A DNA stretch of 58,811 nucleotides from Desulfamplus magnetovallimortis. Lineage in GTDB: Bacteria; Desulfobacterota; Desulfobacteria; Desulfobacterales; Desulfobacteraceae. The position numbers and the translations under genes are program-made. The stretch covers positions 102,935-161,745 of the forward strand of contig NZ_LT828552.1 of the NCBI RefSeq assembly GCF_900170035.1, written 5' to 3'. Position 1 is the stretch's first letter; each line of letters starts with the position of its first letter. The notes under the pieces were generated by a model. It was given only the letters and a program-made list of their open reading frames with translations, was not told the DNA's origin and did no database searches. Shown piece by piece: positions 12,500 through 18,476 of the stretch.

Positions 12500-13777
12500 T
12501 TACATCTTTGTTCCTTCGGCATGACTCTGAAGTTTAACCTCAACTTTCTCGGTCAGGCTGGCATAGTACTCACGCAGAATGACAAGAACCTCTTCACGTC
12601 CAAAATGGTCAACAACCTCTTCATTATTGGAAAGAGCATGACGAAGTTTTGTTCCGGAAAGAATTACTCTGTCGTCCTTGCCATGTGGGCAGGTTCTCAT
12701 GGAAGCCATGCCATCACATTTGTAGCAATAGAATGTCCAGTCAATCTTCAGAGCTTCGCACTGAAGAGCTTTTCCAGGCTCAGCAGGAGCTGGAATGGCA
12801 TCAAAGATCTCCTGTGCTTCAAAAAGTGTATAGAAATCACCAACGCCTGCATGGTCACGGCCGATGATCATTTTGTTTACACCATAGTTCTGACGGAATG
12901 TTGCATGAAGAAGAGCTTCACGAGGACCTGCATAACGCATATCAAGGGGATATCCACCCTGAACAACCTTATCTTCAACAAAATAACCTTTTACCAGAGT
13001 ATCAATACACTTTACACGAACTTCAGCAGGAATGTCACCAGGTTTCAGGTTACCGATCAAAGAGTGAATCAAAACACCATCACAAACATCAATGGCTATC
13101 TTGCAGAGATGCTCATGGGATCTGTGCATTGGATTTCTAAGCTGCATGGAAGCAACATTTGCCCATCCTCTTTCATCAAAAATTGCGCGGGTCTGGGCAG
13201 GTGTAAGATAGACACCTTTAAATTTCTCGGGGAACTCACCTTCTGAAAGGACTTTTACAGGGCCTGCAAGGCAGAACTCTTTTCTGGCCATAACCATCTG
13301 AACACCAGGATGATCTTTAAGAGCGATTTCCCAGAATTTATCATCCGCAGACTCTTCTCCATGACCTTTGTAAACCTTCTCTGATTCCCATTTTTTATCT
13401 TCTTCGGTCATCTCAAACTTTTCGGTGACCTTCATTGTGGCATAAATCTCACCATTTCTTTCAAGGGTAATCTCATCACCTTCTTTAATGGCATCTGCGT
13501 CAGCCTTGGAAGCGTCCAGCATAACAGGAACAGGCCAGAACGTACCGTCAGCAAGAAGATAATCGGCACAAACACCTTTCCAGTCCGCTTTTGTCATAAA
13601 ACCATCAAGGGGACTGAACCCACCGATACCCATCATGATAAGGTCACCTTTTACCTGGGAGCTTATCTCAATTTTCTTAAGACCAGCGGCTTTTTTAAGT
13701 TCTGCCTCAAGTTCAGCACCTTCAAGTTTGCAGCATACAAGACCTTTTCCACCATGTGGGGCAACTAATTTAGACAT
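12500..13777 (-). CDS. sat: Sulfate adenylyltransferase (ATP sulfurylase)
   Basis: It activates sulfate with ATP to adenosine 5'-phosphosulfate, the first step of dissimilatory sulfate reduction. [13 protein letters not shown] near 212-224 holds the HxxH nucleotide site and [11 protein letters not shown] near 295-306 the second His motif. The zinc-ribbon-like [15 protein letters not shown] near 356-370 fits the sulfate-reducer type. Length 425 is normal and there is no APS kinase domain. The ATG follows TAAGGAG. The gene is monocistronic, with a terminator below and a leader of about 150 nt above. It is the best indicator of the host's metabolism; aprAB and dsr genes are not in the window. 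Confidence 0.95.
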
Positions 13778-14188: not shown

Positions 14189-14824
14189 TTATTTCATCTT
14201 CATCAATTTAACAAGGGAATCCATACTCTCAGCATAAAAATCAGCAGACAGGGATGAATTTTTAAAAGCTGCAAACCATGTTCCTGCATTTTGTGCCGCC
14301 TGTTGATCATACTCTGAATCGCCTATAAACAATATCTGACGCGGAAGCAAGGAAAGCTCATTCATAATTTTGACAAGTTCATCAGGTGCGGGCTTTGCAT
14401 TTTCCACATCTGCTGCTGTCACAACCATCTCAAAAAAAGAAGTCATTCCATGTTTTATGAGTACGTCATGCATTGTATTTGTCCTGTTGGTTGCAATGGC
14501 TCGGATATATCCATGGGACTTGAGCAGAGTCAGCAGTCGTCGGGTGCCTGGCTCTCTTTCCATATACTTGATAAACGGATGGTACCCCATCTTTTTTGCA
14601 AAGGCAAATATTGGTTCAAGGGATTCCATTTCCGGAAAAAGATATTGAAATGCCTCCCTTACTGTAAACATATGCACCTTGACAAACTGTTCATCACTTA
14701 GTTTCGGCTTACCAAAATTACTTAAAAGGGTATCATAATAGTTTCTGTTAGCCTTTGCTGTATCAAAAAGAACACCATCACAATCAAATACCACTGCTTT
14801 TATATTATCAATCTCAATTGTCAT
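14189..14824 (-). CDS. HAD-superfamily hydrolase (phosphoglycolate phosphatase-like)
   Basis: The Asp nucleophile motif is VFDCDGVLFDT near residues 12-22. IATNRT near 110-115 supplies motif II, K142 in AKPAPDE motif III, and GDSEYD near 166-171 motif IV. A helical cap (residues 25-90) marks subfamily I. Such proteins dephosphorylate small phosphoesters; the substrate is unknown. 211 residues is normal. It follows the DUF1573 gene by 50 bp on the same strand and may be co-transcribed. Confidence 0.85.
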   Translation of the reverse strand: MTIEIDNIKAVVFDCDGVLFDTAKANRNYYDTLLSNFGKPKLSDEQFVKVHMFTVREAFQYLFPEMESLEPIFAFAKKMGYHPFIKYMEREPGTRRLLTLLKSHGYIRAIATNRTNTMHDVLIKHGMTSFFEMVVTAADVENAKPAPDELVKIMNELSLLPRQILFIGDSEYDQQAAQNAGTWFAAFKNSSLSADFYAESMDSLVKLMKMK

Positions 14825-14874: not shown

Positions 14875-15588
14875 CTACTCCATTATGTTCCCAAAAACAC
14901 TGATTTTTATCTCAGGCTGAATGGTGCTGTCGGTTTTCAGTACAATCATATCAAAATAACGGCCAGGGCGATTCATAATATTTCTTACAACAATCTCGCA
15001 CCCGTCGTTCTGTGTATTGTTTGACTTAATTTCAGCCACAATATGCTTACCCTCCTGTAGCTTCATGGAGAGCACTTTTAATGGATATCCTGGCTCCGGC
15101 ACCACTGAGACTGATGCTTCAGTTTTTTCGGATTTTTTTCCCATAAGCCTTAAAACCCTTGGTGAAATTCTGACAATGGCTTTTACCACACCTTCAACAG
15201 TGAGATTCATGACTTTGTTGACGGGATCATTGCTATGTATTGAGATCACCTTACTAAGTGTTTTTCCGGCATAACCGTTTGTATCAACCTTTATCTGCAG
15301 CTTACCTTCCCCACCCGGGGGAATTTTCCTGTCATATGAGACAGCGGTGCAACCTCAGGCCGTCTTAACATTTTCTATAAAAAGTGGTGCCCCACCCTTA
15401 TTCTGAATTATAAAGTCATGAGCAAGCTTTGTTCCTTCAGGCACATCATTAAAGGTAAACTGTGGCTCAAGCACAACAATATTAGGGACATTATTATACT
15501 TGTTCTCAGTTGATACAGAAACATCTATCTTAAAAACAAAGAGACAAAGCAGAAGCATAAAAACAATTCTGTATTTCACAATTCTCAT
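14875..15588 (-). CDS. Candidate selenoprotein: DUF1573 domain, TGA at the conserved Cys codon
   Basis: One frame runs from ATG 15588 to the stop at 14875, interrupted only by TGA at 15355-15357 (codon 78). The first 28 residues form a signal peptide, so the protein is exported. The DUF1573 pattern is clear: VLEPQFTFNDVPEGTK, a strand ending APLFIENVKTA, then TGA, then GCTAVSYDRKIPPGGEGKL. In the family this position is the first Cys of a CGCT motif, so TGA falls exactly where Cys is expected. The downstream half keeps the domain (VISIHSNDPVNK) with no other stop. A hairpin 32-48 nt after TGA (TTCCCC, loop CGGGT, GGGGAA) has G at loop position 2, as bacterial SECIS elements do, at the far edge of the usual distance. 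A second hairpin (CTGTC/GACAG) lies nearer but has no loop G. A nonsense mutation is the alternative. The full length is 237 residues. The start follows GAGGAA. Confidence 0.75.
15308..15324 (-). promoter_or_regulatory. Possible bacterial SECIS hairpin
   Basis: On the minus strand TTCCCC, loop CGGGT and GGGGAA follow the in-frame TGA by about 31 nt, with 37 nt between TGA and the loop. Six base pairs and a G in the second loop position fit known bacterial SECIS rules at their outer limit. The structure is judged by eye. Confidence 0.45.
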
Positions 15589-15901
15589 ATATTCCTCAAT
15601 TTTTTAAGTTTTTTTTGAGGACTTTCATACTTTGTATGACAAAGAGTGCTGCCATAGCCGCCATATAAAAATATCCCCAAGTGGCTGTTTTTATGAGGGC
15701 TTTCACGCCTCATTGTGGCAGATGATGCTGCCATGGCCGTTTTACATGAAAGTCTCGGTAACAGCCTGTTTTTAAAACGACTTTCATCTCTTCGATTGTG
15801 GCGGTGATCCGCCATGTACGTTATATAAAAGTCTCGGTAACAGCCTGTTTCTAAAACGACTTTCATCCCTTCGATTGTGGCGGTGATCAGCCATGTACGT
15901 T
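15585..15901 (+). repeat. Tandem array of D-type two-hairpin units
   Basis: Clear units at 15744-15822 and 15823-15901 are nearly identical; a diverged unit lies at 15663-15743 and a partial one at 15585-15662. Each has ATGAAAGTC/GACTTTCAT-like arms, a TTCGATTGTGG linker and a GGCGG/CCGCC-type hairpin, ending TACGTTATA. The last unit runs into the pabBC stop codon. The array fills the whole gap between pabBC and the DUF1573 gene. Confidence 0.85.
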
Positions 15902-18476
15902 ATACAACAATAAGAAGCTCCCTGTTGAGCCATTCACAAAAAAACGATACAGAATCATTATGACAGGTGGATAATTTCCTGCCATCAATGGAGATAACCC
16001 GAACAGCACCCATAAGGGCATTCAGGGCAATCACATTTTCCATGCCGCACAGCTCATCATAGGTCATTTTTCGATGGATAATATTGTACCCTGAAGCAAC
16101 AAGCCTTTCCCGTGAAGCAGAAAGGGTGACACTTGGGAGGGCAAACTCTGAAATCGGCAAAAAAACATTTTTACCTTCAATCACCATAAGAGCACAGGTA
16201 TTGGTCTCTGAGACAGTACCATCTGTATTCATTACAAGTGCCTCATCAAAGCCCTTTTCCTTTGCATAGAGACCTGCAAGATAATAATACATGTAGTTAA
16301 GGGATTTGTGCTCTGCAATTGGCGTGTGTCTCGGCACAGGATATGTTACGACATCCAGGCCATCTTTCCTGTAGAAACCACCTTCTGGAAAAGTTCTCTT
16401 TTTAAGTAATCTATGGCTGTACGGACGTGCAAATACCCCAAAAAAATGTCCTTTTCCACTTACGGAAATACCTCTGCCATCCCTGTCCATATCCTTTTTA
16501 GGAGGGCTTAAAGCCACCACGATCTTGACAGCAGCCACTCCTGAATCCAGGCCGTTAAGTTCTACAATGCTCTTTATTATATAATCCCAGCTTAAAGCAG
16601 GTAATTGCTCATTAAAAAGAGATTTCCAGCTATTTGCAAGACGTCTTATATGAGAGTCAAGCCTTAAAATAGAACCTTTTTGCACCCTTATGGTTTCAAA
16701 AATTCCGGCTCCATACTGAAAACCCGGAAAAGATGCCGGAACAGCCGCTTGTGATTCTTCAACAATTTTGCCGTTTACCCATGCCACTTTAGATGAAGGA
16801 GTTTCTTTGCACAAAATATTATCTGACAAAGATTTTTTTCTGCAGAACAGAGTTTCAAGCAATGTTTTGCCTTTATGCAGGGTCTCCTCATACTCTTTTT
16901 CAGGGTCAGAATCAAAAACAATTCCCCCACCCACCGAGAAACCGATCTCCCCACCTGCCACAACAGCAGTTCTTATGGCAATGGATAGATCCATTGTATC
17001 ATGAAAACTTATATAGCCCACAGAACCGGTATAGACATGGCGCCGCACACTCTCAAGCTCATCAATTATCTCCATTGATCTAATCTTGGGGCAGCCCGTA
17101 ATGGAACCGCCCGGGAACGAGGCTTTTATTAGATCAACCCCTGACTTGTCAGAAGCAAGCTCTCCTTCAACAATGGAAACAAGATGAAAAACATTGTCAT
17201 AGGGTTCAAGACGTTTATGCTCCTTTACAATCACGCTTTCCCCCACAGCGACCTTTCCAAAATCATTTCTCATAAGATCCACAATCATGGAAAGTTCTGC
17301 ATCGTCTTTGGTGCTTCCAAGAAGCTCATCACCATTTTGTTTATCTTCACAATCATTTTTGCCCCTCTGAATTGTACCTTTAATGGGACGGGTCTCAATT
17401 TTTTTACCAGACTGATGTATAAAACGCTCCGGAGATGTTGAGATGACCTGATGATCACCTGCATTGATATATGAAAAAAAAGGGGCAGGGTTCTTTTCGA
17501 AAAGCCTGAGAAAAAGAGAATAAGGATCTCCCTTAAAACCTGTTGTAAAACGCTGGGAAAGATTTACCTGGTAAATATCTCCAGCCTTTATATAGTCAAT
17601 AATTTTTTCAACAGATGCCATATATTCGGGTTTAGAAAAATTTGATTTAAAACCTCCAGGGTCAATGGAAAAAGAATTTATGGAAGAAAAAGAAGAAGTA
17701 TGGGCACTAAAGACACCATCCTCATCTTCAAAATGGGGGGAGATAGTTTCCTGATGTTGATCTGAAATATCAATATCTTCCAGATCAATGGGTTCTCCGG
17801 ATGATGCCTCAAGATCAGGCTTGAGCAAATGGTATGAGTCACAAAAACGATCATTAATCAAAATGTGCGATGGCACACAAAGAAAGATATCAGGAAGATT
17901 CTGATCCATACAGGTATTGGGTAAATCTTCAATGTAATCCTTAACATCATAGGCAAAATATCCAAAAAACCCCGACAGAACAGGCAATTTTCCAGGTGGC
18001 TTTCCGGAGAAGCATGGGGAAAAAACCTTAAGTTTATCGCCTGTGTAACATGAAGAAAAAAGATCGGATTTTTCCCGTGAGTGACATGAAGAAGCAATGC
18101 CGCCCTTTTCCCGTGAGTGACACGAAGAAGCAATGCCGCCCTTTTCCCTTAAGTGCAATGAGGATAATAGTGATGATAATTGCAAATTATATTTACTTAC
18201 AACTTCTTGAAGCAGATCAAAGGGATCAGCTTCAAACAAAAACTCATCACCCAACAGGCAGGCTTTTACAACACCTGCCCTGACAGATAGAGTCAACCAT
18301 GGCCGTACAGCCATTATATTATAACGGGCACAGTCAAGGGATGTACCACTCAAAAGAACAACACTGCCAGGCTCCCTTGAAAAAGAGTTTGCAATATGTA
18401 AAAAGGGGATTTCCGGCTGCACCTTGATGCACGAAATCCCCTTAAATAATGGCAGTCGGCTCAGAAAAGAGTTCAT
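15900..18476 (-). CDS. pabBC: Fused aminodeoxychorismate synthase component I / 4-amino-4-deoxychorismate lyase
   Basis: Both steps from chorismate to p-aminobenzoate in folate synthesis on one chain of 858 residues. The PabB half has GYFAYD near 175, the catalytic-lysine motif RPIKGT near 360 and PGGSITGCPKIRSMEIIDELE near 455. The PabC half starts near WVNGKIVEE (about 575) with the fold-type IV PLP lysine in EHKSLNYMYYYLAGL and SETNTCALM behind it. The glutaminase PabA is not in the window. Between the N-terminal part and GYFAYD is a 12-residue repeat (REKGGIASSC-like, four decaying copies). It heads toward the D array. The MBL gene upstream is 33 bp away, so co-transcription is likely. 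Confidence 0.9.
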   Translation of the reverse strand: MNSFLSRLPLFKGISCIKVQPEIPFLHIANSFSREPGSVVLLSGTSLDCARYNIMAVRPWLTLSVRAGVVKACLLGDEFLFEADPFDLLQEVVSKYNLQLSSLLSSLHLREKGGIASSCHSREKGGIASSCHSREKSDLFSSCYTGDKLKVFSPCFSGKPPGKLPVLSGFFGYFAYDVKDYIEDLPNTCMDQNLPDIFLCVPSHILINDRFCDSYHLLKPDLEASSGEPIDLEDIDISDQHQETISPHFEDEDGVFSAHTSSFSSINSFSIDPGGFKSNFSKPEYMASVEKIIDYIKAGDIYQVNLSQRFTTGFKGDPYSLFLRLFEKNPAPFFSYINAGDHQVISTSPERFIHQSGKKIETRPIKGTIQRGKNDCEDKQNGDELLGSTKDDAELSMIVDLMRNDFGKVAVGESVIVKEHKRLEPYDNVFHLVSIVEGELASDKSGVDLIKASFPGGSITGCPKIRSMEIIDELESVRRHVYTGSVGYISFHDTMDLSIAIRTAVVAGGEIGFSVGGGIVFDSDPEKEYEETLHKGKTLLETLFCRKKSLSDNILCKETPSSKVAWVNGKIVEESQAAVPASFPGFQYGAGIFETIRVQKGSILRLDSHIRRLANSWKSLFNEQLPALSWDYIIKSIVELNGLDSGVAAVKIVVALSPPKKDMDRDGRGISVSGKGHFFGVFARPYSHRLLKKRTFPEGGFYRKDGLDVVTYPVPRHTPIAEHKSLNYMYYYLAGLYAKEKGFDEALVMNTDGTVSETNTCALMVIEGKNVFLPISEFALPSVTLSASRERLVASGYNIIHRKMTYDELCGMENVIALNALMGAVRVISIDGRKLSTCHNDSVSFFCEWLNRELLIVV
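18009..18152 (-). repeat. Intragenic 36-bp tandem repeat in pabBC
   Basis: Four 36-bp units at 18009-18044, 18045-18080, 18081-18116 and 18117-18152. The last two differ at only a few bases; the first is much decayed. They encode 12-residue units such as SREKGGIASSCH and keep frame. Confidence 0.8.

Follow-up and report, generated by a model that had tools for sequence, protein, structure and literature searches.

A DUF1573 gene with an in-frame TGA

We analysed a 58,811-nucleotide stretch of the Desulfamplus magnetovallimortis genome (assembly GCF_900170035.1, contig NZ_LT828552.1, positions 102,935 to 161,745), hereafter the window, whose own numbering is used throughout. On the minus strand, positions 15588-14875 form a single frame of 237 codons plus a stop codon, and its sole interruption is a TGA at codon 78 (15355..15357), which we read as selenocysteine (Sec). 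The TGA is flanked by VKTA and GCTAV and corresponds to the first cysteine (Cys) of the DUF1573 C-G-C motif, giving a U-G-C motif whose partner, Cys80, is encoded at 15349..15351. Two short hairpins follow the TGA at 15329..15344 and 15307..15323, and the way in which they may specify Sec is the main subject of this study. The read-through product matched the Pfam model of DUF1573 (PF07610) with 70.8 bits over residues 41-135 (15184..15468, minus strand; gathering cut-off, 26.1), a region that also appears as a HYDIN-like immunoglobulin (Ig) domain in the structure model described below. In addition, it scored 136 bits against the NCBIfam model NF041425, "OS_HP2 family (seleno)protein" (cut-off, 100).

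A sequence-only reading of the window had pointed to this 237-codon frame, with its single TGA at the conserved DUF1573 Cys and the domain kept on both sides of it, and our searches bore this out. It had also called the gene a likely new selenoprotein. The Sec part of this claim is supported by the machinery, the Sec/Cys interchange and the selected RNA structure reported below; the word "new" has to be dropped, because the OS_HP2/DUF1573 selenoprotein family is already catalogued. Specifically, besides NF041425, a DUF1573 domain-containing protein (pfam07610, motif UGC) is tabulated as a selenoprotein with reference to Zhang & Gladyshev 2007 (PMC9312934), and DUF1573 with motif UGC is tabulated again in PMC13188914; DUF1573 is also an entry in an iron-response expression table. 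The window gene belongs to the same family and carries Sec in the same U-G-C motif. The table entries in PMC9312934 and PMC13188914 consist of name, motif and accession only, and the recoding structure, the linkage to a HAD hydrolase, the paralogues and the Sec/Cys exchange are not part of them. No functional work on the DUF1573 selenoprotein was found in the literature searched, where OS_HP2 gave unrelated matches only, among the matches listed.

The host genome (6.68 Mb, 97.3% complete) encodes a complete Sec machinery outside the window, as had been suggested for checking: one tRNA-Sec above the gathering score (76.6 bits), confirmed by ARAGORN with anticodon TCA, together with SelA (595.6 bits), SelB (361.5 bits) and SelD (370.4 bits), the last of which itself contains one TGA. 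SelB was above the cut-off in 73 of the 84 genomes searched. The statement that selA, selB and selC are missing from the window itself agreed with the searches made, which left some of its protein genes without annotation, and an Rfam scan of the window at gathering scores returned two tRNAs and nothing else.

As the alignment proposed in the sequence-only reading was expected to reveal, relatives carry TGA or a Cys codon at the Sec column. Among 207 distinct loci with a residue there, the window and its paralogues included, the codon was TGA in 174 and TGC or TGT in 33, and no other codon occurred. The first locus collection contributed 131 TGA, 21 TGC and 9 TGT (161 distinct loci, with 6 rows gapped at the column set aside), and further loci contributed 43 TGA, 2 TGT and 1 TGC (46 distinct loci, with 21 gapped rows set aside and 7 loci already known). 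Note that many loci were chosen for a TGA seen in the search table, so that the Sec:Cys ratio is biased upward and these counts give no estimate of it; this bias bears less on the lack of any third codon. A family-level search without preselection matched the protein in 75 of 86 genomes, and by hand count each of the 75 has a TGA-containing match, some of them partial (G079 and G084, for example), the Sec column itself having been checked in the fetched loci only and not across all 75. In wider samples, PF07610 was matched, with or without a TGA, in 221 of 241 genomes of the class, and NF041425 was matched in 119 of 297 genomes of the phylum, in 35 of them above the cut-off. On a quick tree built from 129 Sec and 29 Cys rows (158 in all), 14 Sec/Cys changes were needed, at least 10 of which were forced by branches with support of at least 95; support was below 80 for 64 of its 155 inner branches. 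At four loci (L170, L180, L147 and L175), DUF1573 genes occur as adjacent duplicates, either Sec/Sec or Sec/Cys.

A TGA is ordinarily a stop codon, and a true stop, or a sequencing error, would leave here a decaying gene or two separate products. The chance of this is negligible, because 174 distinct loci share the TGA at this position, where it is exchanged only with Cys, the alignments continue past it, and the host has the full Sec machinery. We rejected the pseudogene and the sequencing error on the recurrence of the TGA across family loci, the restriction of its column to TGA and Cys codons, and the repeated changes on the tree. None of the signs that had been named in advance as speaking against Sec was seen, namely decayed downstream frames in relatives, a genome without Sec machinery, or reads with TGC or TGT in place of TGA. 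Given the complete machinery, the Sec/Cys interchange in relatives and the selected RNA structure after the TGA, codon 78 very probably encodes Sec, which we take as settled within the limits of sequence evidence.

Tandem hairpins downstream of the TGA

Hairpin positions are counted from the T of the TGA as +1. In the window, the first hairpin (H1; +14..+29, 15329..15344, minus strand) has the stem CUGUC/GACAG and the loop UCAUAU, which lacks a G, and the second (H2; +35..+51, 15307..15323, minus strand) has the stem UUCCCC/GGGGAA and the loop CGGGU, a candidate SelB-binding loop. The bSECISearch model of the bacterial Sec insertion sequence (SECIS) comprises one hairpin with a G among its first two loop nucleotides, a loop of 3-9 nt and a distance of 16-37 nt from the UGA (PMC13188914). 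Some genes do not fit this model, and two hairpins are not described in the part of that paper devoted to it. By these measures, H1 of the window is not canonical (spacing, 15 nt; loop, UCAUAU), and H2 just is (spacing, 37 nt; loop, CGGGU). The sequence-only reading had noted a G-loop hairpin 37 nt downstream of the TGA, which is present as H2, its loop starting after 37 nt. As a single-hairpin SECIS, however, that description was incomplete, since H1 between the TGA and H2 had been missed and both hairpins are conserved.

The earliest SECIS test, a sliding comparison with synonymous-codon shuffles (family loci; 78 Sec, 13 Cys), revealed two structured windows downstream of the TGA in the Sec copies. 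It was weak per sequence, with p<=0.05 in 9 of 78, although its outcome differed between Sec and Cys copies. For the main test, each locus was folded and compared with its synonymous-codon shuffles, using order-wide loci from which redundancy had been removed at 80% (50 Sec, 27 Cys). The Sec loci carry two tandem hairpins, H1 at about +14..+33 and H2 at about +35..+54. In the 50 non-redundant Sec loci, the mean z-score was -2.45 for the H1 window (+10..+33; below zero in 98%, p<=0.05 in 30/50) and -1.96 for the H2 window (+34..+57; below zero in 98%, p<=0.05 in 25/50), and the control windows +58..+81 and +82..+105 gave 0.03 and 0.07, respectively. The 27 Cys loci had mean z-scores of -0.38 (H1) and -0.13 (H2), with p<=0.05 in 2 and 0 loci. 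In a second set, which comprised 43 distinct Sec loci and drew 34 of these from beyond the order, the z-scores were -2.57 for H1 (43/43 below zero), -1.60 for H2 (98% below zero) and 0.07 for the control. Its 33 non-redundant loci gave -2.99 for H1 (33/33 below zero, 27 at p<=0.05), -1.66 for H2 (32/33 below zero, 13 at p<=0.05) and -0.03 for the control. When the Cys loci of both sets were pooled (n = 30), the corresponding values were -0.52, -0.05 and 0.19. Both hairpins are under selection in the Sec copies of the family.

The folds themselves had exactly two hairpin loops in 47 of 50 Sec loci. Under a strict count, with stems of at least 4 pairs and loops at the H1 and H2 places, both hairpins were present in 46/50 and 29/33 Sec loci of the two sets, 6/30 Cys loci, 5/24 SelD loci and 1/6 FdhA loci. 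At least one of the first two loop nucleotides was a G in 7 of 62 non-redundant Sec loci for H1 and in 58 for H2. The loop of H1 starts at a median of 17 nt from the UGA (13-21), and that of H2 at 38 nt (37-42). Of the mutual-information column pairs, the strongest (+17:+30) is in H1, and +40:+48 and +36:+51 join the two arms of H2; the pair +20:+27 shows all four Watson-Crick types. One Cys copy (L039) retains both hairpins (-11.6 and -6.9 kcal/mol), as expected after a recent change from Sec to Cys.

Two selenoprotein families of related genomes served as controls, SelD with 28 sites in 30 loci (24 non-redundant) and FdhA, whose 30 loci comprised 27 sites (6 non-redundant) and three FdhA copies lacking a TGA. 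SelD (n = 24) had z-scores of -2.80 at +10..+36 and +0.43 at +34..+57, and FdhA (n = 6) had -1.84 and +0.49 in the same windows. Thus, both windows exceed the shuffles in Sec DUF1573 loci and only the first does so in SelD and FdhA, whose single selected hairpin has a G-bearing loop starting at about +22 to +24, whereas the G loop of DUF1573 is that of H2, near +42. Note that NF041383, searched as a further control family, had no match above the cut-off in 58 genomes, and PF11376 had 3 matches in 58 genomes, each with further internal stops and unusable.

With the canonical SECIS as outlined in PMC13188914, the DUF1573 signal shares a stem-loop directly after the UGA and, in H2 of 58/62 loci, the loop guanosine. 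It differs in having two adjacent selected hairpins, of which H1 breaks the loop-G rule in 55/62 loci and H2 breaks the 16-37 nt spacing in 48/62. Loop G, loop size and spacing were all canonical for H1 in 4 and for H2 in 11 of the 62 loci.

Several observations weigh against a two-hairpin signal. The window sequence alone is unexceptional (z -0.81 against dinucleotide shuffles), and its H2 reached a p of only 0.187 against synonymous shuffles. H1 is weak in part of the family (-0.4 kcal/mol in L101), and the GG of H2 belongs to Gly codons in a conserved PPGGEG stretch, so that the protein forces part of the H2 sequence. Several high mutual-information pairs fall off both helices, and the register of the stems varies from locus to locus, so that RNAalifold found no consensus when 131 Sec loci were aligned with MAFFT. 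Cys copies are slightly structured (mean z -0.49 at +10..+36, p 0.049; -0.60 over both hairpins, p 0.021), perhaps as remnants, and in 9 hand-picked Sec/Cys sister pairs the Sec member was more stable in 7 and less stable in 2 (p 0.039). Folds with two loops were also obtained for 7 of 11 sites from the SelD search, false ones included, so that loop counts alone do not discriminate. Finally, the loci share ancestry, which makes the per-locus tests non-independent, and the non-redundancy filter only softens this.

The proposed recoding signal

All in all, we consider it likely that this OS_HP2/DUF1573 gene combines Sec at codon 78 with a two-hairpin recoding signal; the selenoprotein family is already known, and the signal is the element that appears new. 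In the mechanism we propose, the two tandem hairpins that immediately follow the UGA would together specify Sec insertion. H1 sits where a bacterial SECIS normally lies and mostly lacks the loop guanosine, and H2 bears the G loop normally recognised by SelB. Relative to SelD and FdhA in related genomes, this loop is displaced downstream by about 20 nt. Judged from loop sequence and position only, H2 is on balance the more probable SelB-binding site, its G loop being the part that SelB would bind. H1 could then act as a compact spacer, whose folding would shorten the path from the UGA to H2 and bring H2 near the ribosome. Alternatively, H1 may be a UGA-proximal element that acts directly on the ribosome and stimulates redefinition.

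In eukaryotes, the selenocysteine redefinition element (SRE) is a UGA-proximal hairpin, and the SECIS is a second element that recruits the Sec factor. The DUF1573 signal resembles this arrangement in pairing a UGA-proximal hairpin with a second element, but it is bacterial and fits both of its elements into about 55 nt of coding sequence; we imply no homology. In the literature searched, which left out most subscription journals, we found no description of a bacterial two-hairpin SECIS among the papers listed, and the one listed match to SECIS, SelB and "two hairpins" was unrelated. We lean slightly towards regarding the signal as a distinct class of bacterial SECIS, a class in which both tandem hairpins would be obligatory and, within one selenoprotein family, conserved throughout the phylum; the proximal hairpin would be a motif-less spacer or redefinition element and the SelB G loop would be displaced by about 20 nt, past the accepted limit in most members.

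The same data could be read as one ordinary bacterial SECIS, namely H2 placed at the upper limit of the usual spacing, with H1 arising by chance or from protein-coding constraint. The loop G of H2 in 58/62 loci, its position within 16-37 nt of the UGA in 14/62 and the 37 nt in the window fit such a reading. However, selection is stronger on H1 than on H2 (mean z for H1 -2.45 and -2.99 in the two non-redundant sets), H1 is nearly flat in Cys copies, and H2 lies beyond 37 nt in 48/62 loci, whereas the SelD and FdhA loops start near +22 to +24, so that we regard a lone H2 as very improbable. A single-hairpin SECIS was rejected as a full account, as H1 and H2 are both selected in Sec loci, unlike in SelD and FdhA. 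The roles might also be reversed, H1 being a SelB-binding SECIS with a relaxed loop and H2 an accessory or a by-product of CCN CCN GGN GGN codons. The canonical distance of H1 (47/62 loci within 16-37 nt) and its stronger z-score speak for this possibility, which we nevertheless judge unlikely, because H2 is more stable than the synonymous-shuffle mean in 98% of Sec loci. Moreover, H2 reaches p<=0.05 in 25/50 Sec but 0/27 Cys loci, and it is therefore more than a codon by-product.

Protein, gene neighbourhood and significance

The product would be an exported Ig-like selenoprotein, a putative signal peptide at its front suggesting export. An AlphaFold2 model built from 62 sequences is confident over residues 30-237, which are almost all-beta (mean predicted local distance difference test score 90.7; predicted template-modelling score 0.77), and has low confidence over residues 1-29; the beta strands beyond the DUF1573 domain may be read as a second domain. 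Among the best 50 Foldseek rows against PDB, the top matches were HYDIN-type central-apparatus proteins and Porphyromonas gingivalis 2qsv, with template-modelling scores below 0.5, and 2qsv was also the best PDB sequence match (E 0.00019). The protein shares a fold, with weak sequence similarity, with the Ig domains of HYDIN/CFA65/VesB-like proteins and with 2qsv, which is titled as of unknown function. In the 62-sequence alignment, N63, residue 78 and C80 are invariant and H57 is nearly so. We tentatively suggest a thiol/selenol redox role outside the cytoplasm, in which a U78-C80 selenenylsulfide would take part in thiol-disulfide exchange. It is also possible, if somewhat doubtful, that the U-G-C motif binds a metal or selenide/sulfide without redox turnover, since U78 and C80 together with the nearly invariant H57 could act as ligands and the modelled domain is Ig-like and beta, unlike the folds of classical oxidoreductases.

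Downstream of the gene in the window, a profile match identified a HAD-family hydrolase (14189..14824, minus strand), whose open reading frame (ORF) cluster is shared across neighbourhoods; the next gene on the strand is an ATP sulfurylase (12500..13777, minus strand), likewise by profile match. The top models for the hydrolase were phosphoglycolate phosphatase and pyrophosphatase, and it remained under every equivalog cut-off among the best 25 of 36 models. We compared neighbourhoods at 71 sites in 68 longer, hand-chosen loci, and the counts refer to 64 Sec sites with at least 1.8 kb and 5 Cys sites. A HAD-family hydrolase lies directly downstream at 41/64 Sec sites and 0/5 Cys sites, and the ATP sulfurylase cluster follows downstream at 12/64 Sec sites. 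A permease cluster lies near the gene in five neighbourhoods, four Sec and one Cys (L062, L064, L121, L122 and L125), with ArsP_1 in L064. Upstream of the window gene, at 15742-15904, are two 79-bp direct repeats (94% identical), with what may, judged by eye, be degenerate further copies down to about 15600; Rfam gave no match to the repeats at gathering score and one chance-level match around the gene.

The second Sec copy of the host genome is followed by genes for GspG, a GspE-like protein (615 bits, just under the cut-off of 630) and GspF. This second Sec-DUF1573 paralogue, followed by type II secretion genes, recurs in the genus (L047, L054-L056); GspG, GspE-like and GspF were identified in L047, and the same clusters occur in the others. 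As for Cys copies, three have an FdhA match lacking a TGA no more than about 1.1 kb away, namely G000:C10 (L048), G006:C52 and G096:C347, and in G019 (L063) an uninterrupted ORF upstream of the Cys DUF1573 belongs to the same cluster as the FdhA of G000. Their gene order varies, with the positions of DUF1573 and FdhA swapped in G006, and on the tree these Cys copies fall in three separate places. A sigma-54 activator is encoded about 3 kb beyond the pair in G000. A Cys DUF1573 with a TGA-less FdhA looks like a selenium-independent backup cassette.

If two hairpins suffice for Sec insertion, with the recognition loop about 20 nt beyond its position in SelD and FdhA, the published rule of one hairpin at 16-37 nt would be too narrow, and selenoprotein genes with such signals would often escape the standard model. 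The DUF1573 genes would then offer a natural case for asking how far SelB can reach and whether bacteria have a UGA-proximal stimulator like the eukaryotic one. With matches in 75 of 86 genomes the family is widespread, and its repeated Sec/Cys exchange and frequent HAD partner make its function testable.
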